46,002 nucleotides of DNA. Origin: Coriobacteriia bacterium. Lineage in GTDB: Bacteria > Actinomycetota > Coriobacteriia > Anaerosomatales > Kmv31. The position numbers and the translations under genes were made by a program. Positions 816-35,316 of the stretch are shown here, piece after piece (positions within the stretch are counted from its first letter, which is position 1; each line of letters opens with the position of its first letter). The stretch spans positions 1 to 46,002 of the forward strand of contig JACUUM010000010.1 in assembly GCA_014859305.1 (NCBI GenBank), in the 5' to 3' direction. The notes below the pieces were generated by a model that was not told where the DNA came from, searched no databases, and saw only the letters and a program-made list of their open reading frames with translations.

Positions 816-1446
816 GTGGCTCTCCTTCGCGGGTCGACGTCGCTACGTCCGCTCCTGGGAGACCCCTCGAAACGTAGGACGCCGGGCGGCCCGGAAGCGT
901 TCCCGCTTCCCGTGGGCGAGCCTAGGCTTCCGAGCCACTCACGCGGGGCTCGGCCGGACACATCCACGGGCCCGGTGCGGTCGGCTGGTCCCGATGGCGG
1001 CCGGTTTCCCGGTCCTTGCGTCGCCGGCGGATGCACCGGCGTCGCCGCATCCCGGGGTAAAGGAAAAGGCCACCGTCTGAAGGGTCCCTTCAGATAGCGG
1101 CCCGACTATCTGTCACCAACCTCCGGGGGCGTGCGCCGCCCGGACCCGATAGCGCTCTTCTCTTGTCACAATCTTGTCCGCCCCGGCCGCTCCTGTCAAC
1201 CGCCGGCGGCCCCTCCACGGGGGGCATCCGCACGCCGAGGAGCGCCTCGGTTCGCATCCTACCTGGGCGTTCCCGAAAGGCCACCTCCAGCGGGCGAGGG
1301 CTGCGGGACGGAGCCGTCCGCGCCGCGCGGAGGGCGTCCGGGTAGCGTATCCTGTACCCGTCCCCGCCGGGTCGCGGGGCGCCGCATGTCAGCCCGTCCG
1401 AGGGCATCCCGCGGTCGAATGCCGCAGCGCCGCAGGGAGCCCCCGC
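816..1446. other. 631-bp divergent intergenic region
   Basis: This gap separates the divergent starts of the KamA-family gene and pabB. No frame in it shows a recognisable protein or a good ribosome binding site. It carries two abutting inverted repeats (1077-1112, listed separately) and must hold the promoters of both flanking genes, but I could not pick a convincing -35/-10 pair. A structured RNA or small RNA here cannot be excluded by eye. Confidence 0.5.
1077..1112. promoter_or_regulatory. Two abutting inverted repeats between divergent genes
   Basis: CTGAAGGG at 1077-1084 is mirrored by CCCTTCAG at 1086-1093 with a single-base centre. The last three bases of that arm begin CAGATAG (1091-1097), which pairs with CTATCTG (1106-1112) across 8 bases. 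The shared arm means the two hairpins would be mutually exclusive in RNA. As DNA they could be operators. There is no T-run, so a simple intrinsic terminator is less likely. The function is inferred. Confidence 0.4.
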
Positions 1447-2793: not shown

Positions 2794-3145
2794 GGGCGGC
2801 GGCGAGGATGCCCGCGTCGAGCACGGGGACGGCCACGAACCACCGGTGCCAGAACAGCGCGGTGAGCGCGAGGGAGCCCAGCGCCCCCGCGGCGGCCGCG
2901 ACCCGCCAGGCCGCAGCCGCGCCCGGCACACCCAGCAAGCCGAGGCCGGCGGCGGTGAACGCCAGCACGGTCACCGCGACGAGCGTACGCCCGGCCGCCA
3001 CCAGGACCGACGGCTCGGACCGCGGGAGCAGAGGGGAGCGCGTGAGGTCGAACGGGTACGCGGGGTCGTCCGGGCCTGGTGTCACCCACGCCAGGTGTAT
3101 GAGGCCGTGCAGGATGACGAACGCTCCGAACAGGCTTCGCGCCAC
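2771..3145 (-). CDS. Small four-helix membrane protein, unknown
   Basis: A 124-residue hydrophobic protein starting at a GTG with a GAGGAGG site 7-8 bases upstream. It has a first hydrophobic helix at about residues 3-20, a short polar loop containing a PGPDDPAYPFD stretch, and three further hydrophobic segments to the C-terminus. The histidines and tryptophan in the first helix (HGLIHLAW) and an HRWF later could lie at the membrane surface. I do not recognise the family. It overlaps the pabB stop tail-to-tail by 23 bases and has no operon partner on its strand. Confidence 0.65.
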   Translation of the reverse strand: MARSLFGAFVILHGLIHLAWVTPGPDDPAYPFDLTRSPLLPRSEPSVLVAAGRTLVAVTVLAFTAAGLGLLGVPGAAAAWRVAAAAGALGSLALTALFWHRWFVAVPVLDAGILAAALSGWPSA

Positions 3146-3314
3146 CCGTGTCCTCCTCGGCTCGCAACGGCCCTTCCGTGGCTCCGCCCCCGACGGCCCA
3201 GACTAGCAGAGGGTGCGGCGAGAAGGGTGTCGACGGCCCGAAGCCTGCTCGGGACCGCCCGTCGCGGTGGTAGGCTGGACGGGACCGCCCCGACGGAGGG
3301 GAGGACCGCCCAAG

Positions 3315-4385
3315 ATGCTCGAGTCGCTCGGCTTCACCGAGCGCTGGCGCGCGCTGATCGCCCCGCATGCCGAGGCCGGTCTCGTCCCCGGCCGGGTCGT
3401 TCGCGCCGATCGCGGCAGCGTGCTGGTGGGGACCGAGGACGGGATCGTGCGCGCCGAGCCCTCCCCGCGCCTCGTTCGCGCGGCGGCGTCGCCGGCCGAC
3501 CTGCCCGTCGCCGGCGACTGGGTCGCTCTCGACCCCGCGCCCACCCACGAGGCCGCGTTCGTGGAGGCGGTGCTGGAGCGGTCCTCGGCGTTCACGCGCG
3601 GCGACCCCGGCAAGGCCACCCTCACCCAGGTCGTGGCCGCGAACGTCGACACGGTGTTCGTCGTGCAGTCGCTGGCCGAGGAGCCCAGGGCGCGGCGCAT
3701 CGAGCGCGAGCTGGCGATGGCTTGGGAGAGCGGAGCGGTGCCGGTGCTGGTCCTCAACAAGGCGGACCTCTCCCCGGATCCGGCGGCGGCTCTCGCGTCG
3801 GCGGAAGAGGTGGCGCCGGGAGTGGACGTCCACCTCACGAGCGCCGAGACGGCCCTGGGCGTCGAGAGCCTGCTCGCCTACACCGAGGGGCACCGCACCG
3901 TCGCGCTCATCGGCCCGTCCGGCGTGGGCAAGTCCACGCTCATCAACGCGCTGGCCGGCTCGGACATCCAGGCAGTTCGCGAGGTGCGCCTCTCGGACGG
4001 GAAAGGGCGCCACACCACCGTCGCCCGCGAGCTCGTGCCGCTGCCCACCGGCGGCGTGCTGATCGACACGCCAGGCATGCGCGCGCTCGCGCTGACCGAG
4101 TCCGAGGAGGGCATCGAGGCCGCGTTCCCCGAGATCACGGCTCTGACCGCGCGGTGCCGCTTCGGGGACTGCTCGCACGAGACAGAGCCCGGCTGCGCGG
4201 TGCTCGCGGCCGTGGAGGACGGCGAGCTGGCCGAGGAGCGTCTCGCGAGCTGGCGCAAGCTGCGCGCCGAGTCGCGCTTCGCCGCGCGCAAGGCCGACGC
4301 CCGCCTGCGCGCCGAGGAGACCCGCAAGTGGAAGCTGCTCAGCAAGGAGATCCGGCGGCACTACCGCGAGAGGGGCAAGGGGTAG
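3315..4385 (+). CDS. rsgA: Ribosome small-subunit GTPase RsgA
   Basis: A 356-residue circularly permuted GTPase that checks late 30S subunit assembly. An N-terminal OB-fold (about residues 20-105) is followed by the permuted G domain: G4 NKAD at 148-151, the P-loop GPSGVGKST at 200-208 and the G3 DTPG at 251-254. A zinc-binding knuckle follows (C281, C286, H288, C294), then a basic helical tail. Order and length fit the family. The ATG at 3315 is preceded by a GGAGGGGAGG run; an upstream in-frame GTG adds residues that do not look like RsgA. The last 40 codons lie inside a 211-bp tandem duplication whose second copy follows the stop codon. Confidence 0.96.
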   Translation: MLESLGFTERWRALIAPHAEAGLVPGRVVRADRGSVLVGTEDGIVRAEPSPRLVRAAASPADLPVAGDWVALDPAPTHEAAFVEAVLERSSAFTRGDPGKATLTQVVAANVDTVFVVQSLAEEPRARRIERELAMAWESGAVPVLVLNKADLSPDPAAALASAEEVAPGVDVHLTSAETALGVESLLAYTEGHRTVALIGPSGVGKSTLINALAGSDIQAVREVRLSDGKGRHTTVARELVPLPTGGVLIDTPGMRALALTESEEGIEAAFPEITALTARCRFGDCSHETEPGCAVLAAVEDGELAEERLASWRKLRAESRFAARKADARLRAEETRKWKLLSKEIRRHYRERGKG

Positions 4386-21432: not shown

Positions 21433-21948
21433 ATGTCGCGCATCATGATCCGCCCCTGCAGCCCGGACGAGTCCGACACGGTCCTCGGCGTCATCAACGC
21501 CGCCGCCGAGGCGTACCGCGGCGTGATCCCGCGGGACCGCTGGCACGAGCCGTACATGACCGCGGAGCACCTCGGCGGCGAGATCGCCTCCGGCGTGCGG
21601 TTCTTCGGGCTCGAGGAGTCCGGCGAGCTCCTCGGCGTGATGGGCATCCAGGACGTCGAGCGCTCCGGCGCCCCTGGCGTCACCCTCATCCGTCACGCGT
21701 ACGTGCGGCCCGACGCGCAGCGCCGCGGCGTCGGCGGGCGCCTGCTCGCGCACCTGCGTGCTCTCGCGGAGCGGCCGATCCTCGTCGGTACGTGGGCCGA
21801 CGCGTGCTGGGCGGTCGCGTTCTACGAGCGCAACGGGTTCCGCCGCGTGACGCGCGAGGAGACCGCGAGGCTGCTGCGCACCTACTGGGACATCCCCGAG
21901 CGGCAGGCGGAGACGTCGGTCGTGCTCGCGGAGGAGGGCGCCGGATGA
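21433..21948 (+). CDS. GNAT-family N-acetyltransferase
   Basis: A 171-residue acetyltransferase. The acetyl-CoA-binding motif is seen as YVRPDAQRRGVGGRLLAHL (R/Q-x-x-G-x-G/A core), with the upstream strand GVMGIQDVE and a later WAVAFYERNGFRRV motif. It transfers an acetyl group from acetyl-CoA to an amine; the substrate is unknown. The ATG at 21433 lacks a strong ribosome site and an internal ATG at 21445 is an alternative. Its stop overlaps the start of the radical SAM gene by 4 bases, so the two are translationally coupled. Confidence 0.85.
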   Translation: MSRIMIRPCSPDESDTVLGVINAAAEAYRGVIPRDRWHEPYMTAEHLGGEIASGVRFFGLEESGELLGVMGIQDVERSGAPGVTLIRHAYVRPDAQRRGVGGRLLAHLRALAERPILVGTWADACWAVAFYERNGFRRVTREETARLLRTYWDIPERQAETSVVLAEEGAG

Positions 21949-22961
21949 TCGACCACGTCGCGATGGCGGAGGCGTACGAGCAGGGCCGCTTCTACGCGCT
22001 GCAGCTCGAGGTCAACGACGCCTGCGAGCAGGCCTGCGCGTACTGCTACATGAACGCGCTGCCCGACGTCCAGAGCATGCTCGCCGACGACGAGGTCCTC
22101 GGCGTGCTGTCCGACGCCGCCGACGCGGGCTTCAGCGCGATCGAGTGGCTCGGCGGCGAGCCGCTGGACCGCCCGGGGGTCTTCGGGCTGATGGAGCGGG
22201 CGCGGGAGCTCGGGTTGCGCAACAACGTCTGGACGGGCGGGCTGCCGCTCGCCCGCCCCGGCGTCGCCGAGCGGGTGGCCGAGCTCGCCGAGGGAGCGCT
22301 CGTGTCGGTGCACCTCTCGACGCTCGACCGGGCGCTCTACGAGCGGCTCCACCCCGGCCGCTCCGCCGGGGACATCGGCACGATCCTCGCCGGCGTCGAG
22401 CGCCTGCTGGCCCTCGGGTACCCCTCCGGGCGGATGCTGGACTCGGTGACGTTCACCGGTGCGCAGCCCGCCGAGGACCTGATCGCCACCATCGACGCGT
22501 TCGAGGGCCGCTACGGCATCCGCACGTCGCTGAACGTCTACCACACCTACCTCAGGCCCGGGTACGACCCCGGCGAGCTGGCGCGGTTCGTCCCGCAGCC
22601 CGAGGAGGTCCGCCGTGTCCACCGCCGCTACGAGCGCCAGTGGGGCGGGCCGATGCCGATGAACTGCGTCGACAAGCGGTACTGCTCGACCACCGTCGCG
22701 GTGCTCAACGACGGCGCCGTGACGTCCTGCGCCACCATCCGTGACGGCGTAGGCGGCATCCGCGAGGAGGGCGGGCTCGCCGCCGTGCTCGGCGCGCGGC
22801 GCGAGGCGCTCACGCTCGCGGCGCTCAAGGACGCGGCCAACCTGCCCGAGGGGTGCGCGGAGTGCGGGATGTCCGAGGACTGCTGGGGCTGCCGTTCGCG
22901 CGCGTACGCGGCGGGGAGGGGGGTCCTCGGCAAGGACCCGAGGTGCTACCGGTCGGGCTGA
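21945..22961 (+). CDS. Radical SAM protein with SPASM-like C-terminus
   Basis: A 338-residue radical SAM enzyme. The cluster motif CX3CX2C is C27, C31 and C34 (CEQACAYCY), and the next conserved strand reads IEWLGGEPLDRPG. The C-terminal part has the cysteine arrangement of SPASM/twitch domains, with a CVDKRYC segment, a CAT, then CAECG, CWGC and a final CY, enough for one or two auxiliary iron-sulfur clusters. SPASM enzymes modify peptides, proteins or small molecules. There is no small peptide gene in the 32-bp gaps nearby. Coupling to a GNAT gene suggests modification of an amine-bearing small molecule or protein. Convergent with citrate synthase. Confidence 0.87.
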   Translation: MIDHVAMAEAYEQGRFYALQLEVNDACEQACAYCYMNALPDVQSMLADDEVLGVLSDAADAGFSAIEWLGGEPLDRPGVFGLMERARELGLRNNVWTGGLPLARPGVAERVAELAEGALVSVHLSTLDRALYERLHPGRSAGDIGTILAGVERLLALGYPSGRMLDSVTFTGAQPAEDLIATIDAFEGRYGIRTSLNVYHTYLRPGYDPGELARFVPQPEEVRRVHRRYERQWGGPMPMNCVDKRYCSTTVAVLNDGAVTSCATIRDGVGGIREEGGLAAVLGARREALTLAALKDAANLPEGCAECGMSEDCWGCRSRAYAAGRGVLGKDPRCYRSG

Positions 22962-22988: not shown

Positions 22989-24389
22989 CTACCGCTCCGC
23001 AAGCGGCAGGTACTCGCGTCTCGGAGCGACGCTGCGGTAGGCCGGCCGGATGATCTTGCCGCCGTTGGCGATCTCCTCGAGCCGGTGAGCGCACCAGCCG
23101 ACTGTGCGGGCGATGGCGAACACCGGGATGAACAGCTCGGGCGGGATCTCGAGCATGCTGTATACGAATCCGGAGTAGAAGTCGACGTTCGCGCTCACGC
23201 CCTTGTGCATCTCGCGGGTCTTCGCGATCGCGCCGGGGGCGAGCTCCTCGACCTTGACGTGCAGCCGGTACTCGTCGGCACGCCCCTTCTCGTCGGCCAG
23301 CATCTCCGCGTAGCGCTTGAGCAGGAGCGCGCGCGGGTCCGAGACCGAGTACACCGCGTGCCCCATGCCGTACACGAGCCCCGCCCGGTCGAACGCCTCC
23401 CTGTTCAAGAGCCGCAGAAGGTACGCGTCGACCTCCCCGTCGTCCTCCCAGTCCCGCACGTTCTCCTTCAGGTCCTCGAACATCCGGACCGCCTTCAAGG
23501 TGGCGCCTCCGTGCCTCGGGCCCTTCAGCGAGCCGAGGGCGGCGGCGATGGTCGCGTACGTGTCCGTCCCGGTGGACGAGACCACGTGCGCGGTGAAGGA
23601 GGAGTTGTTGCCGCCGCCGTGCTCCGCGTGCAGGACGAGCGCCAGATCGAGCAGCTTCGCCTCCAGTGGCGTGTACGTGCTGTCCGGCCTCAGCATGTGC
23701 AGGATGTTCTCCGCGGTGGAGAGCTCGGGCACCGGCGCGTGGATGACCAGGCTGCTGTTCTCGAAGTGGTGGAGGTACGCCTGATACGCGTAGACGGCCA
23801 GACTCGGGAACTTGGCGATCAGGTGCATGCTCTGCCGAAGGACGTTGAGGACGTCGATGCTGTCCGGGTCCTTGTCCTGGACGTACAGCGTGAGCACGCT
23901 TCTGGCCATCGCGTTCATCACGTCGGGGCTCGGCAGCGGCAGGACGGCGTCGCGCACGAAGCGCTTCGGCAAGACGCGGTGCTCCGCGACGCGCTCCCCG
24001 AACTCACGCAGCTCCTCCTCGTCGGGCAGTTCGCCGAAGAGCAGCAGGTACGCGGTCTCCTCGAAGCCCGGCCGGTCCTCGGCGAGGAAGCCCTTGACGA
24101 GGTCGTTGATGTCGATGCCGCGGTAGACGAGCTGGCCGGGGCCGGGCACGAGCGCGTCGCCCTCCCGGACGTATGCCGCGACCTCGCCGATCTGCGTCAG
24201 GCCCGCCAGCACGCCCCTTCCCGAGGCGTCACGGAGCCCTCGCTTGACGTCGTGCTCGGCGTACTGGGCGGGATCCACGTAGTTGCTCGCCTGGGCCATC
24301 CGGCTCCAACGCTCGAGCTGGGCATCCCCCGGGGTCACCCCCGGGACGGCCTCGTCTGTGGCTCTGCGCCTGAACGGGTTCAGCCTCAC
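22989..24389 (-). CDS. gltA: Citrate synthase
   Basis: A 466-residue citrate synthase that condenses oxaloacetate and acetyl-CoA to citrate, the entry step of the TCA cycle. Family residues are seen: the first catalytic histidine in LHAEHGGGNNSSFT, the second in YGMGHAVYSVSDPRA, and the aspartate in NVDFYSGFVY. The SLKGPRHGGATLKAV segment matches too. The extra N-terminal 60 residues before LTQIGEV resemble clostridial-type longer citrate synthases. No aconitase or isocitrate dehydrogenase gene is close. The minus-strand promoter should lie in the 334-bp gap upstream. Confidence 0.95.
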   Translation of the reverse strand: MRLNPFRRRATDEAVPGVTPGDAQLERWSRMAQASNYVDPAQYAEHDVKRGLRDASGRGVLAGLTQIGEVAAYVREGDALVPGPGQLVYRGIDINDLVKGFLAEDRPGFEETAYLLLFGELPDEEELREFGERVAEHRVLPKRFVRDAVLPLPSPDVMNAMARSVLTLYVQDKDPDSIDVLNVLRQSMHLIAKFPSLAVYAYQAYLHHFENSSLVIHAPVPELSTAENILHMLRPDSTYTPLEAKLLDLALVLHAEHGGGNNSSFTAHVVSSTGTDTYATIAAALGSLKGPRHGGATLKAVRMFEDLKENVRDWEDDGEVDAYLLRLLNREAFDRAGLVYGMGHAVYSVSDPRALLLKRYAEMLADEKGRADEYRLHVKVEELAPGAIAKTREMHKGVSANVDFYSGFVYSMLEIPPELFIPVFAIARTVGWCAHRLEEIANGGKIIRPAYRSVAPRREYLPLAER

Positions 24390-26009: not shown

Positions 26010-26249
26010 ATGGCGCAGGGGTTCGACCTCGACGAGGTGCTCGAGTGGGTGGACCGGCTCTACGAGGGGCGTGACGGGCAACGGTTGGGCCGGGGCCAGG
26101 TGGTGGGGCGGATGCAGCAGGCCCCGCTCTCGCGCGAGGAGAGAGCGATCTTCGCGGACCTGCCTCCGGGCCCCTACGCCCGCGAGGATCTGCGGCGGCT
26201 CGTGCGCGAGTGGGCGGAGCGCGAAGGCCTGACGACGCGGGGGTCGTGA
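26010..26249 (+). CDS. Small conserved-looking helical protein, unknown
   Basis: A 79-residue, highly charged, probably all-helical protein (EVLEWVDRLYEG, then SREERAIFADLPPGPY and EDLRRLVREWAEREG). A GGAAGGGG site lies 9 bases before the ATG; a GTG three codons upstream is also possible. No family recognised. It precedes a ferritin-like gene by 19 bp in the same direction, so the two are probably co-transcribed. Confidence 0.6.
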   Translation: MAQGFDLDEVLEWVDRLYEGRDGQRLGRGQVVGRMQQAPLSREERAIFADLPPGPYAREDLRRLVREWAEREGLTTRGS

Positions 26250-26268
26250 ACGGACGGGGAGGTGCCCG

Positions 26269-26703
26269 ATGGCCGGCGACGTTCACCTGCGCCTGACCAT
26301 GCTGCGCTACCTCGAGCAGAAGAGCGCCGGGCTGCTGAGGCACGTCGTGGCCGACGAGCCGGGGCTCGACAAGGGCGTGAGCGTGGAGCTGTGCTCCGCC
26401 TTCGACGACCACGAGCGACACGCCGAGGAGCTGAACGCCATCCTGCGTGACGCGGGCGAGCAGGGGCTGCCCGTCCCGGCGAGCTTCGCGCGGGACGTGG
26501 ACGAGCGCATCGCGCGGGTAGGCGCCTCGCGGACCAAGGAGGAGGTCATCGAGCGGCTCGCCGCGCTCGAGATCTTCGCGGTGGAGCAGTACCACCTCGC
26601 GATGGCCTCGGCGGGTCCGGAGGCGCACGGCGCGCTGCTCGCGCAGCTGCTCGACGAGCAGCGGCACGCGCAGGTTCTTGGTGCGAAGGCGCAGCGCACT
26701 TAG
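26269..26703 (+). CDS. Ferritin-like diiron four-helix protein
   Basis: A 144-residue four-helix bundle. Possible metal ligands fall one set per helix: a Glu in YLEQKS, Glu/His in DDHERHAEEL, the ExxH in AVEQYH and the ExxH in DEQRHAQ. This resembles ferritin-like/rubrerythrin-fold and DUF892-type proteins that bind a diiron site and act in iron storage or peroxide removal. No rubredoxin domain is present. GGGGAGG lies before the ATG. Its function is assigned by fold only; the promoter of the next operon starts just after its stop. Confidence 0.72.
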   Translation: MAGDVHLRLTMLRYLEQKSAGLLRHVVADEPGLDKGVSVELCSAFDDHERHAEELNAILRDAGEQGLPVPASFARDVDERIARVGASRTKEEVIERLAALEIFAVEQYHLAMASAGPEAHGALLAQLLDEQRHAQVLGAKAQRT

Positions 26704-26732
26704 GGAGTGCGGAAAGCTCGGCTTCGAGAATC

Positions 26733-26762
26733 TTGAACGAACGGATAAGGGCCGCTTATACT
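26733..26762 (+). promoter_or_regulatory. Sigma70-type promoter of the lipoprotein / radical SAM / phosphorylase operon
   Basis: TTGAAC (26733-26738) and TATACT (26757-26762) are spaced by 18 bases, in one of the most AT-rich patches of this region. The predicted start is near 26769, about 32 bases before the first ATG. It is the best promoter match I find in the window. Confidence 0.65.
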
Positions 26763-26790
26763 TCACCCATCCATCCGGCAATGGGTGAAG
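26761..26790. promoter_or_regulatory. Perfect 10-bp inverted repeat over the operon start
   Basis: CTTCACCCAT (26761-26770) is mirrored exactly by ATGGGTGAAG (26781-26790) with a 10-base spacer. It overlaps the end of the -10 box and covers the expected start site, ending just before the ribosome site. The 20-bp centre-to-centre spacing puts both arms on one face of the DNA, as for a dimeric repressor operator. As RNA it would be a 5' hairpin, though partly missing if transcription starts at 26769. Confidence 0.6.
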
Positions 26791-26800
26791 GGGTAAGGAG

Positions 26801-27496
26801 ATGGCCAAGAAGGTACTGCTCGCGTGCGGCGCGCTCGTGCTGTCGGTAGCGCTGATCGGCTGCCAGGGCAAGGTCGAGGATACGGATCCGGGAGCCGAGG
26901 CGCCCGGCGGGGCGGAGCCGGTCGCGACCGGGAGCCTGCCCGCTCCGACCGCCGAGGACCCGATCGTGGTCGACGAGGAGAACCGCGCCGTTCTCGTCTA
27001 CGCTGAAGTGAACCGGAAGTGGGTCACGGAGCCGACCCGGCATGGCGTCGTGGCCGGGAACGGGAGCAACGGCGACAAGGCGATCTTCCGGGCGGGCGGC
27101 GACGCGCTGGACTTCCATGCGGCGCTGACCGGCCTCGGAGCGACACCGGGCGACAACGTGAAGAAGGACTCGCCCGCGGGCACGGCGGCCGAGGGCGACG
27201 GGCTCGATGTCACGGTGAGCTGGGAGGGCGCGAGCTTCCCGATCGACGAGCTCGTGATCAGCACCGGCGAGTTCGGCGGCAAGGCGCTGGACCCGAAGTT
27301 CGGCGGCAACTACGAGATGCAGTCCACGGCCAAGACGGGTTGCCTGTTCTGCCTGGACACCTGTGCGGCGGGCATCACGTCGAACGCCGCCGTGGGCTGG
27401 AAGTCCTTCGACAGCGGCAAGGTGGAGTTCCGCGGTGACGGCGACAAGCTGCCGGCGGACGGGACGCCGGTCGTGGTCACGTTCGCGCTGAAGTAG
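26801..27496 (+). CDS. YdjY-type lipoprotein with a CX2CX3C motif
   Basis: A 231-residue lipoprotein. A signal peptide ends in the lipobox LIGC with acylated C21, then a disordered linker (22-55). Residues about 56-231 match the YdjY domain: YAEVNRKWVTEPTRHGVV, GSNGDKAIF, and a C-terminal segment with C181, C184 and C188 (GCLFCLDTC) that could bind a metal or iron-sulfur cluster. The protein should sit on the outer face of the cytoplasmic membrane. It is the first gene of a six-gene operon, 4 bp before the TVP38-like gene. Its role in the family is unknown; position suggests an extracytoplasmic metal or redox partner. Confidence 0.85.
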   Translation: MAKKVLLACGALVLSVALIGCQGKVEDTDPGAEAPGGAEPVATGSLPAPTAEDPIVVDEENRAVLVYAEVNRKWVTEPTRHGVVAGNGSNGDKAIFRAGGDALDFHAALTGLGATPGDNVKKDSPAGTAAEGDGLDVTVSWEGASFPIDELVISTGEFGGKALDPKFGGNYEMQSTAKTGCLFCLDTCAAGITSNAAVGWKSFDSGKVEFRGDGDKLPADGTPVVVTFALK

Positions 27497-27500
27497 ACGC

Positions 27501-28718
27501 ATGAGGCAGCGCATCCGCCTCGGAGCCGCCACGATGCTGGCGGGGGCGACCGCCGGCTTCTCGGCGGCGTGGCTGCTGGGCAGGTCGAACACGCTCGCGA
27601 TGGTGTTCAGCACTTCGCTGCTGCTGACCGCAGGCGTGCTCGCGGGCGCCGTCGTCACCTTCTTCGCCGTGCGACGCGCCGGCCGAGGAGGACCCGGTGC
27701 TCTCGCGGCCCGCACCACCGGCGGCCTCCTGATCGTCGCCGGCGCGGTCTCGGTCGCGCACACGCTCCTGACGCAGCCCTACGCCGCCGACGCGGTGACC
27801 ATCATGTGGCTGGACGGGCTGCGGCTGCGCGGGGTCGTGGGCGTCGAGGCGGCGCGGCTGCCGTCTCTGCTGCTGACCGGCGCGGGTGCCGCGTTGGGCG
27901 CCTGCTGGGCCGTTCGCGGGTGGCGCGAGCGGAGCGCGGCGAGGCGGGCTCTGGGCGAGGACGCCCCCGAGCCGCTCGTCTCCCGAAGGCAGCTCGCGGC
28001 AGGCATCGCGGTCGCGGCGGCCGGTGCGCTCGCCTACGCGCTCGTGCCGCCCCTGCGCGACCGGGTGGGCGAGGCTGTCGGTGTCCTCGCGCGCGGCGAC
28101 GTCGAGGTCGTGCGCGACTACCTGCTGGGCTTCGGCCTGTGGGCGCCGGTGGTCTCCTCGGCGCTGATGATCCTGCAGTCGCTCGTCGCGCCGCTGCCGG
28201 CGTTCGTGGTGACCTTCTCCAACGGGCTGCTCTTCGGCTGGGCCTGGGGCGCGCTGCTGTCCTGGTCCAGCGCGATGGCAGGTGCCGCGCTGTGCTTCTG
28301 GCTGGGGCGCACGCTCGGCCGCCCGGCCGTGGAGAGGCTGGTGGGCGGCAGCGCGGCGCTCGAGGTCAGCGACCTGTTCTTCGAGCGGTACGGGGACAAG
28401 GCCGTCCTCATCGCGCGGCTGCTGCCGTTCGTCTCCTTCGACATCATCAGCTACGGCTCGGGCCTGACCCCGATCGGCTTCCGGCGCTTCTTCGTCGCGA
28501 CCGGCATCGGGCAACTGCCCGCGACCCTGGTCTACTCCTACCTCGGCCAGAACCTCACCGGAAGCGTCCGGGTGCTCTTCCTGGTCTTCCTGTTCACCGC
28601 GGTCGTGATCGTGATCGGCTCGGCCGTTCGCCCCGCCTACCTGCGCAAGGTGCGTCGAGAGGCCGCCGAGGAAGGGCTCGGCGCCGAGGCGCGGGCGGCG
28701 GGAGAGGCGGCGTCCTGA
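27501..28718 (+). CDS. TVP38/TMEM64 (DedA-like, SNARE-associated) membrane protein
   Basis: A 405-residue polytopic protein. The first about 165 residues hold four or five hydrophobic helices of no recognised family; the C-terminal half (about 195-385) is a TVP38/TMEM64 domain with the family pattern PAFVVTFSNGLLFGWAWG near its start and RLLPFVSFDIISYGSGL later. Proteins of this superfamily move lipids or lipid-linked intermediates across membranes. TVP38-like genes recur beside arsenosugar-type radical SAM clusters, as far as I recall. It lies 4 bp after the lipoprotein gene and 1 bp before the flippase-like gene. Confidence 0.86.
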   Translation: MRQRIRLGAATMLAGATAGFSAAWLLGRSNTLAMVFSTSLLLTAGVLAGAVVTFFAVRRAGRGGPGALAARTTGGLLIVAGAVSVAHTLLTQPYAADAVTIMWLDGLRLRGVVGVEAARLPSLLLTGAGAALGACWAVRGWRERSAARRALGEDAPEPLVSRRQLAAGIAVAAAGALAYALVPPLRDRVGEAVGVLARGDVEVVRDYLLGFGLWAPVVSSALMILQSLVAPLPAFVVTFSNGLLFGWAWGALLSWSSAMAGAALCFWLGRTLGRPAVERLVGGSAALEVSDLFFERYGDKAVLIARLLPFVSFDIISYGSGLTPIGFRRFFVATGIGQLPATLVYSYLGQNLTGSVRVLFLVFLFTAVVIVIGSAVRPAYLRKVRREAAEEGLGAEARAAGEAAS

Positions 28719-28719
28719 G

Positions 28720-29727
28720 ATGACCGACGGTGCGAGCGCGACGGCCGCCGAGGTGCGGAGCGCGGCGGGGGCGGCGACGGCTGCGGAGCCCCGGCGTTTT
28801 GCCGCCGGCACGGTGCTCCGCGCGCTGCTGAGCGCGGCGCTGCTCGCGTTCGTCCTCTCGCACGTGGAGCTCACCGCGGTCTCCGGCGCATTGCGCTCTC
28901 TCGATACGCCGTGGCTGCTCGCCTCGGCGGCCGCCGTGTACGCCGCGGTGGCTCTGTCCGCGTTCAAGTGGGGCGTGCTGCTGCGCGCCCGAGGACGCCC
29001 GCTGCGGCTGCTCAGGCTCACCCGCCACTACCTCGTCGGACTGTTCTTCAACAACTTCCTGCCGACCTCGGTCGGCGGCGACGTGGTGCGCGCCTGGGAC
29101 GCGGGCCGGGACCTGGACGACGCCGCCGAGGCAGCGGCGTCGGTCGTCGCCGAGCGCCTCATCGCCTCGGTCGCGCTCGCGCTGACCGCGGCGATCGGCC
29201 TGCCGTTCGTGGAGGAGCGCGCCGGGGCGGCCGCCGCGGTGGCCGTCGTCGGCGTCGCGGGCGTGGGGCTGTCCGCGCTCTTCCTGGCGCCGGGGCTCTC
29301 CGAGCGCATGGTGTCCTCGGCGATGCGCGGCCGCTTCGAGACGATCGCGGGCTGGGTGGACCGGACGTCGCGGGCGGTCGGGGAGACGCTGCGCCGGCCG
29401 GGCACGGTCCTCGGCGTGCTCGCGCTGTCGGTGGGCTTCCAGGGGCTCGTCGCGCTCGTGAACTGGTGCCTCTTCCGCGCGCTGGGCTCTCCGATCGGGT
29501 TCGGGGAGTGCGTGGTGTACACCTCGATCGTCTCGGCGGCGACGATGGTCCCCGTGTCCGTCTCGGGACACGGCGTGCGCGAGGCGGGCTACGCGTACTT
29601 CTTCGCCCTCGCCGGCGTCGGGCCGGCCGCGGCCGTCACCGCCTCGCTGCTCTTCTTCTCGGTGGTCGCCGCGTGTACCCTGCCGGGGGCGGTGCTGTTC
29701 GCGACGGGAAGGGGGCGGAGGCGGTGA
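28720..29727 (+). CDS. LPG-synthase-TM (UPF0104) family flippase-like membrane protein
   Basis: A 335-residue membrane protein with about eight hydrophobic helices. The family signature is seen in ALSAFKWGVLLRARG, the FFNNFLPTSVGGDVVRAW loop and, near the C-terminus, VSVSGHGVREAGYAYFF. The family (lysylphosphatidylglycerol synthase transmembrane region) includes lipid or polyprenyl-glycan translocases; this protein lacks the catalytic transferase half. The ATG lies one base after the TVP38 stop, and its own stop overlaps the next gene by 4 bases. With the TVP38-like protein it gives this operon two candidate lipid translocases. Confidence 0.87.
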   Translation: MTDGASATAAEVRSAAGAATAAEPRRFAAGTVLRALLSAALLAFVLSHVELTAVSGALRSLDTPWLLASAAAVYAAVALSAFKWGVLLRARGRPLRLLRLTRHYLVGLFFNNFLPTSVGGDVVRAWDAGRDLDDAAEAAASVVAERLIASVALALTAAIGLPFVEERAGAAAAVAVVGVAGVGLSALFLAPGLSERMVSSAMRGRFETIAGWVDRTSRAVGETLRRPGTVLGVLALSVGFQGLVALVNWCLFRALGSPIGFGECVVYTSIVSAATMVPVSVSGHGVREAGYAYFFALAGVGPAAAVTASLLFFSVVAACTLPGAVLFATGRGRRR

Positions 29728-30581
29728 GACGCGGCGAGGAGCGTCGCGCGGCCGACGCCGCGCGGGCGGATCACGCCTCCGCTCGCAACTGCGCCGAGTC
29801 CGTGCTTCGTGCCGTCACGGCCGAGGGCGGGCTGCCCGCGGTCCCCGAGAGCGCGGGCAGCGGCTTCACCTCGGGCATCGGGAACACGGGCTGCCTCTGC
29901 GGCGCACTCGCGGGCGGTGTGATCGTCCTGGGCGCGTACGCGGAGACCGAGGGGTCGGCGCCGGAGGCGCGCCGCCTTCGCGCCGAGGAGCTCTCCGCCG
30001 AGTTCCTGGCCCGCTTCAAGGAGCGGTGGGGGTCCACGTGCTGCCGTGTGATCACGCGCGGCTTCGTGCCGGGCACGCGCGAGGCGGCGGCCCGCTGCGC
30101 GGAGGTGACCGAGAACGCCGCCGCGCTCGCCGCCGCCATGGTCGGCGACGCCCGCGCCGAGGCGGGGTCTGCGCGCCGACACGGCGCTCGCGACGTGACC
30201 GCGGCGGCGGAGCGGCTCGCGAAGGGCACGCTGGCCGGAGCGGGCGCCGGGCTCGCCGTCTCGGCCGCCGGCGCGCTGCTCGCGGGAGGCGCCCCGGCCG
30301 GGGGCCTGCCGCCGCTGCTCCTCGCCCTGGCGGGCCTCGCCCTGGCCGCGGCGGCGGAGCGGGGCGCGCCCGCGCTGCGCCGGGCGGGACGGGCGCTGCA
30401 CGTCGCGGGGCTCGCCGGCTCCGCGCTCGCGCTGGCGGCTCTTACGGCGCCCCCGGCCCGCGCGGCGCTCGCCGCCGGTCTCGCCGGCGGCGGCGCGTGG
30501 AGCGCGGCGGGCGCGCTGGCCTTCGCCGCGCTGGCGGTGCCGGCCGCACTGCGCGCCTACGAGCTCGGGAGGTACCGGTGA
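29724..30581 (+). CDS. C_GCAxxG_C_C family protein fused to a C-terminal membrane domain
   Basis: A 285-residue protein starting at a GTG that overlaps the upstream stop. Residues about 18-145 are a C_GCAxxG_C_C domain: C23 in NCAESVL, C57/C59 in GCLCGALAGG, C106/C107 in STCCRVI and C125 in RCAEV. These cysteines are thought to bind a metal or carry redox chemistry; the family is typical of anaerobes. Residues about 160-275 are Ala/Gly/Leu-rich and form about four membrane helices, which is not part of the usual short family member. The protein would hold its cysteine domain at the cytoplasmic face. It overlaps the radical SAM gene by 4 bases. Confidence 0.83.
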   Translation: MRRGEERRAADAARADHASARNCAESVLRAVTAEGGLPAVPESAGSGFTSGIGNTGCLCGALAGGVIVLGAYAETEGSAPEARRLRAEELSAEFLARFKERWGSTCCRVITRGFVPGTREAAARCAEVTENAAALAAAMVGDARAEAGSARRHGARDVTAAAERLAKGTLAGAGAGLAVSAAGALLAGGAPAGGLPPLLLALAGLALAAAAERGAPALRRAGRALHVAGLAGSALALAALTAPPARAALAAGLAGGGAWSAAGALAFAALAVPAALRAYELGRYR

Positions 30582-31867
30582 GCGGCGCCGCCCGCCCGGT
30601 CGCGCGCATCGCCGAGGGCATCCGCCTCTCCCGCACGGGCTCCCGCGCGTGGGTCCTGCCCGAGGAGGCGTGCTGGTGCGTCACCCTCGACGGCCGGGCG
30701 CCGCCGCCGCCGGACCCGGCGCCTCGCGTCCCCGAGCCCCCTCCTCGGCTCGCCGAGGTGTGGCTCTACACCAACGAGGACTGCAACCTGCGCTGCTCGC
30801 ACTGCTTCCTGCCGCCTCGGCCGCTGCGTCCGCCGCCCGGCTCCCTGCTCGAGCGGGCGGAGGAGGCGCTGAGGCTCGGAGCGGAGACGGTGTATCTGAC
30901 CGGGGGCGAGCCGTTCCTTCGCGAGGACCTGGAGGAGCTGGTCGCGGCCTTGGCGCCGAGGGCGACGGTCGTCGTGCTGACCAACGGCACGCTCGTCACG
31001 CCGCGGCGCATGGAGCGCCTCGCGGCGCTCGTGCCCGCGACCCTTCGACGCCGCCTCGCGTTCCAGGTCAGCCTCGACGGCTCCAGGGAGGTGCACGACG
31101 CGAGGCGCGGGAACGGCGCCTTCGACCGCGCGGTGAGCGGCATCGAGGCGCTGACCGCCTTCGGCCGCCCGCCGGCGGTCTCCACCACGCTGACCGGCGC
31201 CAACGCCGGCGGCGCGCACGAGGTGACGCGCATGCTCCCCGGCCTGGGCTGCCGCGTGCACCACCTCTTCCTGCCGCACGTCGGAGGCAGGCTCGCCGCC
31301 GGCGCCGAGCGGCTCCCGGCGCCTCGCGAGCTGCTCGCCGCGATCAGGCGCTGCCGCGAGGCCGCCGACGCCGGGGGCGTGATCCTCTCGAACCACGTGG
31401 TGGTGGCCTCGCGCGTGCGCCGCCCCGGGCGGCGCTACGACGGCTGCGTGGGCGGCTGCGCGATGCTCGCCGTCGCCGCGGACGGCAGCGTGTACCCGTG
31501 CCCCTCGCTCGCCGGCCGCTCAGGGCTCGCCGACCCGCCGGGCACGGCGCTCGTCCGGGCGGTCTCCTCGGGCCGGTGCGCGGAGCTGCGCCACGCCACC
31601 CTCGCCCGCCGCCCCCGCTGCGGCGCGTGCGACTACCGCCACTTCTGCGGCGGGGGCTGCGCCGCCCACGCCTACGCCGCCGGAGGAGGGTACGATGCGG
31701 GCGAGCCCTACTGCGAGGTCTACCGGGGGCTCATCGAGGACTGCCTGCGCGAGGAGTCGGAGCGGCTGCTCGGCGAGGCCACGGCCGAGGACCTGACGGG
31801 CGGCGTGCTGCGGCCCTCGCCCGCCGAGGGGGCGGGGACGGGGCGCCACCGCTTCGGCTGCACTTGA
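30578..31867 (+). CDS. Radical SAM/SPASM enzyme of the phosphorylase operon
   Basis: A 429-residue enzyme. After a 60-residue N-terminal region with a Pro-rich linker, the cluster motif is C69, C73 and C76 (CNLRCSHC), followed by VYLTGGEPFLRED, VVLTNGTLV and FQVSLDGSREVHD. The C-terminal SPASM region has GCVGGCAMLA, VYPCPS, CGACDYRHFCGGGC and PYCEVY, enough for two auxiliary [4Fe-4S] clusters. It begins at a GTG overlapping the previous stop. It lacks the C-terminal domain of ArsS-type enzymes, so it is not a standard arsenosugar synthase. Its substrate may be a peptide, or the SAM-derived adenosyl group may end in the product, which would explain the nucleoside phosphorylase next door. Confidence 0.88.
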   Translation: MSGAARPVARIAEGIRLSRTGSRAWVLPEEACWCVTLDGRAPPPPDPAPRVPEPPPRLAEVWLYTNEDCNLRCSHCFLPPRPLRPPPGSLLERAEEALRLGAETVYLTGGEPFLREDLEELVAALAPRATVVVLTNGTLVTPRRMERLAALVPATLRRRLAFQVSLDGSREVHDARRGNGAFDRAVSGIEALTAFGRPPAVSTTLTGANAGGAHEVTRMLPGLGCRVHHLFLPHVGGRLAAGAERLPAPRELLAAIRRCREAADAGGVILSNHVVVASRVRRPGRRYDGCVGGCAMLAVAADGSVYPCPSLAGRSGLADPPGTALVRAVSSGRCAELRHATLARRPRCGACDYRHFCGGGCAAHAYAAGGGYDAGEPYCEVYRGLIEDCLREESERLLGEATAEDLTGGVLRPSPAEGAGTGRHRFGCT

Positions 31868-31912
31868 ACGACGACCTGAAGCCGCCGGGCGCGGGTGCGA
31901 GGAGGGGCGAGG

Positions 31913-32704
31913 GTGCGGATAGGGATCATCGGCGGGACGGGCGCCGAACTCGGCTTGGAGCGTGCCGAGGAGGTGCGGATCGAGAGCCGCTTCGGCAGGG
32001 TGGACGCTCTGCGGGGGCGTTTCGCCGGCGGCTCGTCGGAGGTCGTGTTCGTGCGGCGGCACGGCGAGGGCCACCGGCGGCTGTCCTCGATGGTCGACCA
32101 CCGTGCGAACGTCGCGGGCCTGCGCGAGGCCGGCTGCGCGGCCGTCGTCGCGACGACGGTGTGCGGGGTGCTCGACCCGGAGGTCGCCCTCGGCACGCCA
32201 CTGGTCTTCGACGACCTCTTCTTCCCGGACAACCGCCTGCCCGACGGGTCGCCGTGCACGTTCTTCGACGAGCCGGGCGCTCCGGGTCGCGGCCACTACG
32301 TCCTCGGCTCGCCTTTCTCGCCCGCCCTGCGCCGCACGCTCGTGCACGCCGGGCGCGCCCGCGGGCTCGCTCTCGAAGACGGTGGCACGTACGCCTACGC
32401 GCTGGGCCCGCGCTTCAACTCCCGCGCGGAGGTCGCTTGGCTGCGCTCGCTGGGCGCCGTGGCGGTCAGCCAGACGGCCGGCCCGGAGGCGGTGCTGGCC
32501 GGCGAGCTCGAGCTGCCCTACGCGCTCGTCGGCTTCGGGGTGGACTACGCCAACGGCGTCCAGCCGCGCCCCACCCCCGTCGAGGTGCTCGACGGGCACA
32601 TCGCAGCGAGCCGCGAGGTGCTGCGCACGCTGCTGGAGGCCGCGGTGTCCGCTCTGCCCGAGGAGACCGCGTTCGACACCGGCTTCGTCTACCGCTTCGA
32701 GTGA
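31913..32704 (+). CDS. Divergent MTAP/PNP-family nucleoside phosphorylase
   Basis: A 263-residue protein of the methylthioadenosine/purine nucleoside phosphorylase family. It has IGIIGGTGAELGLE at the start, the phosphate/ribose-site RRHGEGHRRLSS with MVDHRANV, VVATTVCGVLDP, GPRFNSRAEV and a VDYAN segment at the purine site. The usual MTxxPE ribose-contact motif is changed to SQTAGPE, so the conserved methionine is lost. Family members cleave N-glycosidic bonds with phosphate to give base and sugar 1-phosphate; this change suggests another nucleoside. The GTG at 31913 has GGAGGGG upstream. It lies 45 bp after the radical SAM gene and overlaps the convergent transferase gene by 16 bases. Confidence 0.87.
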   Translation: MRIGIIGGTGAELGLERAEEVRIESRFGRVDALRGRFAGGSSEVVFVRRHGEGHRRLSSMVDHRANVAGLREAGCAAVVATTVCGVLDPEVALGTPLVFDDLFFPDNRLPDGSPCTFFDEPGAPGRGHYVLGSPFSPALRRTLVHAGRARGLALEDGGTYAYALGPRFNSRAEVAWLRSLGAVAVSQTAGPEAVLAGELELPYALVGFGVDYANGVQPRPTPVEVLDGHIAASREVLRTLLEAAVSALPEETAFDTGFVYRFE

Positions 32705-34023
32705 GGCGAGGCTCTCCCGCCGCGCTCGCGCCACGCGGCGAGCCGCTCCGGCGGCGTGCCTAGCCGGTACCTCGCCGTGGTGGCGACGTTGAGCGCGGTC
32801 CAACGCCAGGGTCCGTGCTCGCTCCACCCGCGGTCGGAGGTGACGGCGTCGGCGCGCAGCACGCGCACGAGGCCCGCGCGGCGCGCGCGGCGCACGAACT
32901 CGTAGTCCTCCATCAGCGGGTAGGCCGGGAAGCGCCCGAGCGCCCGCCACAGGGCCCTTCGGCAGAAGAGCCCCTGGTCGCCGTAGGGGAAGTGCAGCAG
33001 CGACCCTCGGAGCCGCGTGAACGTCTCGATGACCCGCAGCGCCGGCCGGCGCGCCGCCAGCGAGAAGCGGAACGCCCCCACGAGCAGCCCGGGGTCGGCG
33101 AGCGCGTCGAGCACGAGGCGCGCGAAGCCGCGCGGCGGGAGCGTGTCGGCGTGCAGGAACAGCAGCGCGTCTCCGCCGGCCGCCTCCGCCCCGGCGTTCA
33201 TCTGAGCGCCGCGACCGTGGGCGGCCCTCACCACGCGCGCGCCTCCCGCCTCGGCGATCGCCGGCGTGCCGTCCGTGCTGCCGCCGTCGGCGACCACCAC
33301 CTCGACGTCCTCGGCGAGGAGCCGCTCGAGCAGCGCCGGAAGGACGGTCGCCTCATCCAGCGTCGGCACCACCACCGCGAGCGATCCGGGCGGCTCGTAC
33401 CAGGCCGCGCGCACGGCCTCCCACGAGGCGACGTCCTCGGGCCGGTCGACGTCGGCCCGCGTCTCGAGCACCTCGGCGTCCACGCCGTGGTGCCGCAGCC
33501 CCCCGAGGAGCGTCTCGGCGACGTCGCCCATGCCCCATGCGACGTCCGCGAACGCCGCCGGCAGCACGGCGGCGGCCTCCCGGTCCACGGCGAGCAGGCA
33601 GTAGCCTCCGTCGTGCGCGGGGACGAGCGAGGCACCGCGAGCCGACGCCGCGGCGAGCGCCCGGCGGACGTCCTCGGCGTCGAGGCCGGGGCAATCGGAG
33701 CCCGCCACCGCCGCGACCCGCGACGACCCCAGCGCCTCGCGCAGCGCGCGCAGCTGGCGCTCGCCCAGGTCGCCTCCACCCTGGTCGCGGGCGGGGAGGC
33801 GCAGCCAGCGGCCTGCCGCCGCCGCGGAGCCCCCGGTCACGCGCACCTGGGCGCGGACGCCGTCGGTCGCCCGAAGCAGCCGCAGCTGGCGCGCGGCGTG
33901 CTCGGTCATGGCGGCGTGCAGGGACGCGGCGGCCTCGTCGCCGAGCCGCGCCGCGACGCGCGTCTTGACCGCGCCGGGGACCGGGAGGCGCGTCAGCAGC
34001 GAGACGGAGTGTCGGCGGCGCAT
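32689..34023 (-). CDS. Fused rSAM/selenodomain-associated transferases 1 and 2
   Basis: A 444-residue fusion. Residues 1-205 match the TIGR04282/DUF2064 transferase (nucleotidyltransferase-like fold, with VPGAVKTRVAARLG and GSDCPGLDAED). Residues about 212-440 match TIGR04283, a GT2 glycosyltransferase, with VVPTLDEATVLPALLERL, VVADGGSTDGT, LFLHADTLPP, the YGDQGLFCRR loop and PLMEDYEFVRR. These families were named for co-occurrence with radical SAM/selenodomain proteins, and later linked to arsenosugar clusters. They are usually separate genes. The start follows the CFA synthase stop by 9 bp, and the stop overlaps the phosphorylase gene tail-to-tail. Probably adds a sugar or polyol to a nucleoside-derived sugar phosphate. 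Confidence 0.9.
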   Translation of the reverse strand: MRRRHSVSLLTRLPVPGAVKTRVAARLGDEAAASLHAAMTEHAARQLRLLRATDGVRAQVRVTGGSAAAAGRWLRLPARDQGGGDLGERQLRALREALGSSRVAAVAGSDCPGLDAEDVRRALAAASARGASLVPAHDGGYCLLAVDREAAAVLPAAFADVAWGMGDVAETLLGGLRHHGVDAEVLETRADVDRPEDVASWEAVRAAWYEPPGSLAVVVPTLDEATVLPALLERLLAEDVEVVVADGGSTDGTPAIAEAGGARVVRAAHGRGAQMNAGAEAAGGDALLFLHADTLPPRGFARLVLDALADPGLLVGAFRFSLAARRPALRVIETFTRLRGSLLHFPYGDQGLFCRRALWRALGRFPAYPLMEDYEFVRRARRAGLVRVLRADAVTSDRGWSEHGPWRWTALNVATTARYRLGTPPERLAAWRERGGRASPHSKR

Positions 34024-34032
34024 GCGCCCATG

Positions 34033-35316
34033 CTACGCGTACCAGTCCTCGCGCGTGAGCGGCAGGCCGCTCGGCTCTCCGGTGTGCTTGTGCAGCAGCG
34101 TCTGGTAGACCTGGATCCTGTTGCGGGCGAACGCGACGCCGGCGAACGTCATGTAGAGCCGCCAGACACGGTAGGTGGCCTCGTCGGTGCAGGCCCGGGC
34201 CTCGTCGGCTCGCTCCTCCAGGCGGCGGACCCAGTGCCGCAGGGTCATCGCATAGTGCTCGCGGAGGTCCTCCACGTCGCGCACCTCGAAGCCCGCGTCC
34301 TCGGCCGCCGCGAGCGTGGTGCTGATGGGCAGCAACTCGCCGTCGGGGAAGACGTACTTCTGCGAGAAGCTGGGGCCGTGCTTGCGGCGGTGCTCGAACA
34401 CGCTGCACGAGATGCCGTGGTTGAGGAAGGTGCCGCCTTCGGCGAGAAGCCGTGAGGCCTTCTCGAAGTAGGTCGGCAGCAGCTCGGCGCCGACGTGCTC
34501 GAACATCCCCACGCTCACGAGCTTGTCGAAGGGCCGGGACTCGTCCACGTCGCGGTAGTCGAGCACCCGTGCCCGGCAGCGCTCCGACAGCCCCGCCTCG
34601 GCGATGCGCCGCTGGGCCAGGCGGGCCTGCGGCTCGCTCAGCGTGATGCCCGTGGCGTCCACGCCGTACTCGCGCGCCGCGTGCACGAGCAGCCCGCCCC
34701 AGCCGCAGCCGATGTCGAGCAGCCGCTCGCCGGGCCGGAGCCGCAGCTTGCGGCAGATGAGGTCGAGCTTGCGTTCCTGAGCGGCGTCCAGGTCCTGTTC
34801 GCCGTCCGCGAAGTACGCGCACGAGTAGACCATGTGCCGGTCGAGCCACAGGCGGTAGAAGTCGTTCGAGACGTCGTAGTGGTAGCGGATCGCGTCGGCG
34901 TCGCGCCGCTTTGAGTGACGGCGTCCGTCCAGTTCGGCGGCGCGGGCGCCTTCCCGCCGGCCGTCGCCCGGCATCCTCATCAGGCGGGCGGCGTACCGGG
35001 CGAGGCGCGCGCGGTCCTTGGCTAGCGACTCCAGGTGGTCGCCGAGCCCGGCGACAGCCTCCAGGTCGCCCTCGACGTCGAAGTCGTCGAAGATGAACGC
35101 CTCGCCGAGGCTCACCTCGTTCAGGGGCCAGAACATCCGCTTCAGTGAGGAGGGGTGCTTGAGCACGACGGTGAACCGCGCGTCGTGCCCGTCGTCGGGC
35201 TCCCACGTGGAGCCGTCCCACAGTCGCACGCGGAAGTCCCTCGGGTGAAGGTCGCCGAGGACGTCCTGAAGGAACGCCATCGTCTGCTCGGCCGGTGAGA
35301 CCCTGGTCGCCTGCAT
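34033..35316 (-). CDS. cfa: Cyclopropane-fatty-acyl-phospholipid synthase family methyltransferase
   Basis: A 427-residue SAM-dependent enzyme that adds a methylene to unsaturated acyl chains of membrane phospholipids. The N-terminal domain (about 1-135) carries the family's WPLNEVSLGEAFIFDDFDVEGD segment. Then come YHYDVSNDFYRLWLD, the SAM-binding motif LLDIGCGWGGLL (about 235-246), the SVGMFEHVG active region and SQKYVFPDGEL. A GGAGGTGG site fixes the ATG at 35316; the longer frame upstream adds unrelated residues. It is the last but one gene of a long minus-strand run, 40 bp after a GNAT gene and 9 bp before the transferase fusion. Confidence 0.92.
   Translation of the reverse strand: MQATRVSPAEQTMAFLQDVLGDLHPRDFRVRLWDGSTWEPDDGHDARFTVVLKHPSSLKRMFWPLNEVSLGEAFIFDDFDVEGDLEAVAGLGDHLESLAKDRARLARYAARLMRMPGDGRREGARAAELDGRRHSKRRDADAIRYHYDVSNDFYRLWLDRHMVYSCAYFADGEQDLDAAQERKLDLICRKLRLRPGERLLDIGCGWGGLLVHAAREYGVDATGITLSEPQARLAQRRIAEAGLSERCRARVLDYRDVDESRPFDKLVSVGMFEHVGAELLPTYFEKASRLLAEGGTFLNHGISCSVFEHRRKHGPSFSQKYVFPDGELLPISTTLAAAEDAGFEVRDVEDLREHYAMTLRHWVRRLEERADEARACTDEATYRVWRLYMTFAGVAFARNRIQVYQTLLHKHTGEPSGLPLTREDWYA

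Follow-up and report, generated by a model that had tools for sequence, protein, structure and literature searches.

A candidate organoarsenical gene cluster in a Coriobacteriia bacterium with a SPASM-class radical SAM enzyme in the position of ArsS

Introduction

What enzyme could bond carbon to arsenic in an arsenosugar-type gene cluster that has no ArsS? The question is raised by a 46,002-nucleotide stretch of DNA (the window; assembly GCA_014859305.1, JACUUM010000010.1) from a Coriobacteriia bacterium, which is contig 10 of a 2.1-Mb genome that is 98% complete (genome G000). As cited in PMC12159101 and PMC8552651, ArsS is the enzyme that adenosylates arsenic, and ArsM and ArsS begin arsenosugar synthesis. 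The window contains a plus-strand operon of six packed genes that encode, in order, a YdjY lipoprotein, a VTT/TVP38 protein, an LPG flippase, a C_GCAxxG protein with a membrane domain, a SPASM-type radical S-adenosylmethionine (SAM) enzyme and an MTAP-like phosphorylase, and one fused minus-strand gene meets this operon tail-to-tail. The SPASM-type enzyme (30578..31867, plus strand; 429 residues; PF04055, 72 bits) occupies the ArsS slot. The operon probably encodes an organoarsenical pathway of the arsenosugar or arsenolipid kind, with this SPASM-class enzyme in place of ArsS and with a chemistry that we infer.

Results

Families were assigned with Pfam and NCBIfam models, using the NCBIfam cut-offs. 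Against a cut-off of 300 bits, the ArsS model TIGR04167 reaches at best 42.9 bits across the window genome and 41.2 bits on the window enzyme; the same search returns 366-414 bits in genomes G226, G132 and G476-G479. No ArsS was found in G000, G101 or G487. A search with the C_GCAxxG protein through 397 genomes of the phylum recovered the same neighbourhood elsewhere. In G226 it runs YdjY, VTT, flippase, C_GCAxxG, a lipoprotein-like gene, TIGR04283, ArsS (413.9 bits) and phosphorylase, and the G132 cluster has the same genes, with ArsS at 406-414 bits in the two. The nearest relatives, the Coriobacteriia loci L100, L101 and L104, carry the window's cluster down to the convergent transferase, yet they have ArsS (366-393 bits) and no counterpart of the SPASM enzyme. 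Identities between the window and these three loci are 61-71% for VTT, 63-70% for the flippase, 42-50% for C_GCAxxG, 56-64% for the phosphorylase and 58-63% for the transferase. The YdjY, VTT, flippase, C_GCAxxG and phosphorylase genes that ArsS-bearing relatives share with the window are all present in L100 and G226. L104 has them all except YdjY, which was not detected there, and its ArsS is placed between VTT and flippase; at L103 the phosphorylase is accompanied by ArsS (405 bits). A cluster that is near-identical apart from its radical enzyme argues for the same intermediate as in the ArsS version.

The first-pass annotation had described both ArsS and ArsM as missing. The absence of ArsS extends to the whole genome; ArsM is absent from the window but present on a separate contig (G000:C29:31593-32411, 319.9 bits, cut-off 263). 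The suggestion that the C_GCAxxG protein is a substitute had to be abandoned because ArsS-type clusters contain C_GCAxxG too, and its replacement of ArsM was rejected for the same reason. Among the ArsS-bearing genomes, G477 has a second ArsS-like gene (L156:6717-9553, contig 42) with an in-frame TGA, a probable selenocysteine codon, adjoining a TIGR04282/4283 transferase fusion, and G501 has a similar TGA-bearing ArsS-like copy.

Relatives of the window enzyme are linked to ArsM in a more direct way. A profile of the enzyme, searched through the 397 genomes, finds its best relatives in G431 (367 bits) and G324 (363 bits), with other SPASM enzymes at 157 bits or less. In both G324 and G431, one reading frame encodes ArsM (249 and 262.5 bits, respectively) followed by the SPASM enzyme, and the G324 fusion sits within a cluster of YdjY, VTT, flippase, C_GCAxxG and TIGR04283. 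The Acidobacterium G487 has a single 1107-codon frame in the order SPASM, ArsM (194.6 bits) and DUF5714; a separate locus of this genome holds phosphorylase, TIGR04282 and TIGR04283. The opposite domain order indicates that the fusion probably happened at least twice. In G101 the genes are TVP38, flippase, C_GCAxxG, TIGR04283, SPASM and TIGR04282; this SPASM enzyme is 35% identical to that of the window over a full-length alignment, and ArsM (364 bits) is elsewhere in the genome. Each of the five SPASM-type genomes that were tested (G000, G101, G324, G431 and G487) has ArsM, free or fused. A different fusion, of TIGR04282 to the SPASM enzyme, is found in G140 and G330 (191-193 bits to the profile; the TIGR04282 part in G140 scores 113 bits against a cut-off of 134).

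Beyond this set, neither the 16 next-best SPASM enzymes, with flanks of up to 9 kb, nor five more with short flanks were seen to have C_GCAxxG, YdjY, phosphorylase or ArsM as a neighbour. A radical SAM search of 100 relatives gave generic SPASM enzymes in neighbourhoods without the cluster and was set aside, and TIGR04169, tried as a marker, did not work. Three details of the fusions stand apart from this comparison. The G431 fusion (L214:1703-3616) lies tail-to-tail with a gene whose start resembles SelB by eye; the DUF5714 part of the Acidobacterium fusion (L183:5170-5920, residues about 860-1100) is also matched by MbdU, a metal-binding selenoprotein model; and the L183 SPASM-ArsM copy has lost several SPASM cysteines.

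Is the window gene then a functional member of this family? The enzyme is divergent, with 31-38% identity to its closest relatives, and no further member was seen in a set of 68 genomes from its order, as might be expected if the SPASM gene were a chance insertion into an eroded cluster whose pathway has been lost. This explanation is hardly credible, since every gene is intact and translationally coupled, all radical SAM and SPASM cysteines are retained, and the same substitution occurs in independent lineages.

The radical SAM motif CxxxCxxC is formed by C69, C73 and C76, the SPASM cysteine set is complete (residues 290, 294, 308, 348, 351, 357, 361 and 379), and the C-terminus reads FGCT. 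An AlphaFold (AF2) model with a predicted local distance difference test (pLDDT) score of 82.3 matches the SPASM fold. The Pfam SPASM model PF13186 does not match the window enzyme even at E 5 but does match its relatives L078, L213 and L214, and the designation SPASM-type therefore rests on cysteine pattern, fold and kinship. No NCBIfam equivalog exceeds its cut-off, the best being Rv1681 at 114 bits against 380, and the enzyme does not fall in a characterised maturase family, an outcome that the first-pass annotation had named as grounds for refutation. Identities as AhbD, NirJ2 or Rv1681 were rejected on scores far under cut-off. A role for a C-terminal cysteine (FGCT, VYNCT or FHCNC) as an arsenic ligand is speculative: 8 of 26 controls also carry a cysteine among their final ten residues, the AF2 model shows a disordered tail, and L183 and L193 lack the motif. 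The window has another radical SAM gene (21792-22961, plus strand; best NirJ2, 62 bits, far under cut-off), which adjoins a gene that is citrate synthase-like by eye (22989-24389, minus strand).

In phylogenies of radical SAM enzymes, ArsS forms one long branch (support 100/100). The window enzyme places near other ArsM- or phosphorylase-linked enzymes, outside the ordinary SPASM groups (82/82), and a second sampling recovers a split of that group from 29 other rows (81/88). Close clustering of the window enzyme with the archaeal, Rubrobacter and fusion enzymes (82/82) is not claimed, as it became looser with other sampling and approximately unbiased (AU) tests were undecisive. A grouping with L078 and L183 alone was not rejected (AU p 0.33). 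The window enzyme may have been recruited independently or be distantly sister to ArsS.

The last gene of the operon encodes an MTAP-like nucleoside phosphorylase of a cluster-specific subfamily (31913..32704, plus strand; PF01048 (PNP_UDP_1), 91.6 bits) marked by the motif GFGVDYANGVxxxPTP. In MTAP, RH forms the phosphate site and DYD is the base-binding motif. The window protein has the PNP_UDP_1 fold and retains the phosphate-site RH and GPRFxSRAE motifs of MTAP, but it belongs to a separate subfamily: it is not an MTAP equivalog (TIGR01694, 145.6 bits against a cut-off of 274.85), it has DYANG and no DYD motif, and human MTAP M196 and D222 are replaced by invariant Q187 and A213, the latter in DYANG. 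It is 46-64% identical to phosphorylases adjoining ArsS, and a subfamily common to ArsS and non-ArsS clusters argues for a shared nucleoside-like intermediate. The phosphorylase, used as query against GTDB genomes, yielded 37 loci, the closest named relatives being Coriobacteriia, Anaerosomatales included.

Other loci pair the phosphorylase with yet other radical enzymes. An archaeal operon (L121, SI037_bin40, 270-3453) encodes a low-molecular-weight-phosphatase-type ArsC, a radical SAM enzyme, ArsM and a DYANG phosphorylase; its radical SAM enzyme is non-ArsS and lacks a full SPASM domain, and its ArsM ends in GGGCC. The same radical SAM type adjoins the phosphorylase at L125, and at L114 an Rv1681-like enzyme adjoins TIGR04282/4283 and the phosphorylase. 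Three Rubrobacter-like loci (L217:6981-11588, L218:5052-9557 and L219:7893-12368) have phosphorylase, methyltransferase, radical SAM, TIGR04283-like and TIGR04282 genes, although L218 gave no match for the TIGR04283-like part; the L217 methyltransferase scores 75 bits to ArsM, and the radical SAM enzyme of these loci is of another type again, with the tail AGNACTTV. Judging by the partners at these loci, members of the phosphorylase family act alongside more than one type of radical SAM enzyme. The co-occurrence foreseen in the first-pass annotation was borne out for the transferases, which are clustered with the SPASM enzyme in G101 and G324 and fused to it in G140 and G330, and in part for the phosphorylase, which accompanies it in the window genome and G487.

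The genes are closely packed. Intergenic spacings along the six operon genes are 4, 1, -4, -4 and 45 bp, the phosphorylase and transferase genes overlap tail-to-tail by 16 bp (32689-32704), and starts were corrected to GTG at 29724 (C_GCAxxG), 30578 (radical SAM) and 31913 (phosphorylase). A promoter-like site 5' of the operon (TTGAAC, 18 nt, TATACT; 26733..26762, plus strand) is the sole sigma-70-like match in 26200-34100 (7.9 kb), where shuffles give 0.1 expected. Spacing and promoter match agree with the initial description of six packed plus-strand genes behind one good promoter, tail-to-tail with a fused transferase gene. The first gene encodes a YdjY-domain lipoprotein (26801..27496, plus strand; NF040466, 121.4 bits, cut-off 50) with the lipobox ALIGC and CxxCxxxC near the C-terminus; among the sister genomes it was found in L100 (67.5% identity). 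It is followed by a VTT/TVP38-type membrane protein with an N-terminal membrane extension (27501..28718, plus strand; PF09335, 92.4 bits; identity of 66-71% to the L100 and L101 proteins), a candidate lipid-carrier translocase, and by an LPG_synthase_TM/TIGR00374 flippase-like protein (28720..29727, plus strand; PF03706, 149.6 bits; TIGR00374, 56.3 bits, cut-off 43.2). The C_GCAxxG_C_C redox protein with its C-terminal membrane domain (29724..30581, plus strand; PF09719, 78.2 bits; TIGR01909, 66.4 bits, cut-off 47.4) has a gene that overlaps both neighbours by 4 bases, and it is 50% identical to its L101 counterpart, membrane part included.

The convergent gene (32689..34023, minus strand) fuses TIGR04282, a CofC-like nucleotidyltransferase fold, to the GT2 family TIGR04283, and both halves exceed their cut-offs (136.5 against 134 and 216.5 against 182 bits). 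The TIGR04282 half relates to CofC through a 26-bit TIGR03552 match, and L104 has the same TIGR04282-TIGR04283 arrangement at 60% identity. The names of these families began as 'rSAM/selenodomain-associated', and one may ask whether selenium, or some other soft element, is used in place of arsenic. The genome encodes a selenocysteine-containing SelD with an in-frame TGA (G000:C41:3373-4287), and ArsS-bearing relatives without ArsM exist. Selenium is nonetheless highly improbable in view of the ArsM fusions in three genomes, the archaeal ArsC-ArsM operon, and SelD scores that are not over cut-off in the phosphorylase-cluster genomes G226, G480 and G481. The first-pass annotation had named arsenic, selenium or another soft element as possible; of the first two, arsenic is the better supported. 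The TGA in SelD suggests, as a separate matter, that the organism probably makes selenoproteins. Elsewhere in the window, 1092-1147 (minus strand) is an nhaA-I riboswitch candidate (Rfam RF03057, 45.2 bits).

Discussion

How would such a pathway work? ArsM would make methylated As(III) species, which would be held reduced by thiol/C_GCAxxG chemistry. Because of its position and partners, the SPASM enzyme is proposed to carry out an ArsS-like or similar step, in which it would attach to arsenic a group derived from SAM, most likely 5'-deoxyadenosyl. The DYANG-type phosphorylase could then put phosphate in place of the base, the CofC-like TIGR04282 half could activate the sugar-1-phosphate to give a nucleoside diphosphate sugar, and the GT2 half (TIGR04283) could transfer the sugar to an acceptor of the lipid or glycerol type. 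At the membrane, the lipoprotein and both translocase-like proteins would transport or retain the product, and the presence of VTT and flippase proteins suggests that this product is lipid-linked. More generally, we lean towards the hypothesis that radical SAM enzymes of a second family, of the SPASM class, bond carbon in SAM-derived 5'-deoxyadenosyl to arsenic and replace ArsS in arsenosugar-type pathways, and that the bifunctional ArsM-SPASM fusions would both methylate and adenosylate arsenic within one protein.

Several observations weigh against this proposal. The window genome's ArsM is unlinked to the cluster, and the ArsS-bearing genomes G132 and G476-G479 have no ArsM over cut-off, which means that ArsM may not take part in every case, even in pathways with ArsS. 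Grouping of the window enzyme with ArsS was not rejected (AU p 0.139). A relative in G356 (203 bits) has lost its radical SAM cysteines, with no link seen on a contig of only 3.2 kb. Moreover, no DYANG phosphorylase match accompanies the SPASM enzyme in G101, G324 and G431, so base removal would not be a fixed step. This last point would suit a model in which the enzyme acts on arsenic with another SAM fragment (3-amino-3-carboxypropyl, as in ArsL and arsinothricin) or bonds arsenic to carbon of another substrate, while the phosphorylase only salvages 5'-deoxyadenosine, and ArsL is a precedent for a radical SAM enzyme near ArsM that can use another SAM bond (PMC8552651). However, the window phosphorylase is of the same subfamily as those beside ArsS, and the cluster is otherwise unchanged except for the radical enzyme; we consider this model unlikely. 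The arsinothricin pathway (ArsQML) resembles the window system in pairing ArsM with a radical SAM enzyme that forms a C-As bond, but ArsL has three conserved cysteines only (a single cluster is likely) and no transferases or phosphorylase (PMC8552651), unlike the window enzyme with its full SPASM cysteine set and glycosyl/lipid-type cluster.

Structure also counts against the proposal: the folds nearest to the AF2 model are those of peptide maturases (SkfB, CteB and ChlB), and the N-terminus of the relatives is PqqD-like-looking, with a single weak Pfam match, in L193. Could the enzyme mature a ribosomal peptide and merely be located in an arsenosugar-type cluster? SPASM enzymes mostly modify peptides, and maturases such as SkfB, CteB, ChlB and StsB have the core and SPASM fold in common with the window enzyme. 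Unlike them, it scores far under every family cut-off, including all maturase models, its N-terminal region is degenerate, and fusions join its relatives to ArsM (three genomes) and to TIGR04282 (one lineage). There is no precursor peptide, and the 4-bp overlap and 45-bp gap that flank the gene leave no room for one. A role in peptide maturation is very unlikely.

The organoarsenical assignment thus agrees with the first-pass annotation in seeing a variant arsenosugar-type route with a SPASM enzyme for ArsS, now that sister clusters are found to have ArsS instead and the SPASM family to be fused to ArsM in three genomes. The window cluster has the same TIGR04282/TIGR04283 transferases as the arsenosugar system of ArsM and ArsS (TIGR04167). 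Unlike that system, the window genome has no ArsS, has the SPASM enzyme between C_GCAxxG and phosphorylase, and has ArsM unlinked. What is known here is the arsenosugar-type cluster; what is new is the radical enzyme that substitutes for ArsS, together with its fusions to ArsM. PMC12159101 and PMC8552651 name only two radical SAM routes to C-As bonds, ArsS and ArsL, and our literature searches, with subscription papers outside their scope, turned up no account of either a SPASM substitute or an ArsM-radical SAM fusion.

If the proposal is correct, the SPASM family would be a third C-As enzyme class, recognisable by its ArsM fusion, and organoarsenical synthesis would have been re-invented or re-tooled. 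A direct in vitro test is possible with the ArsM-SPASM proteins of G431 and G324, which are single chains. Searches with ArsS only would overlook producers, and organoarsenical synthesis would extend to further Actinomycetota and to Acidobacteria.

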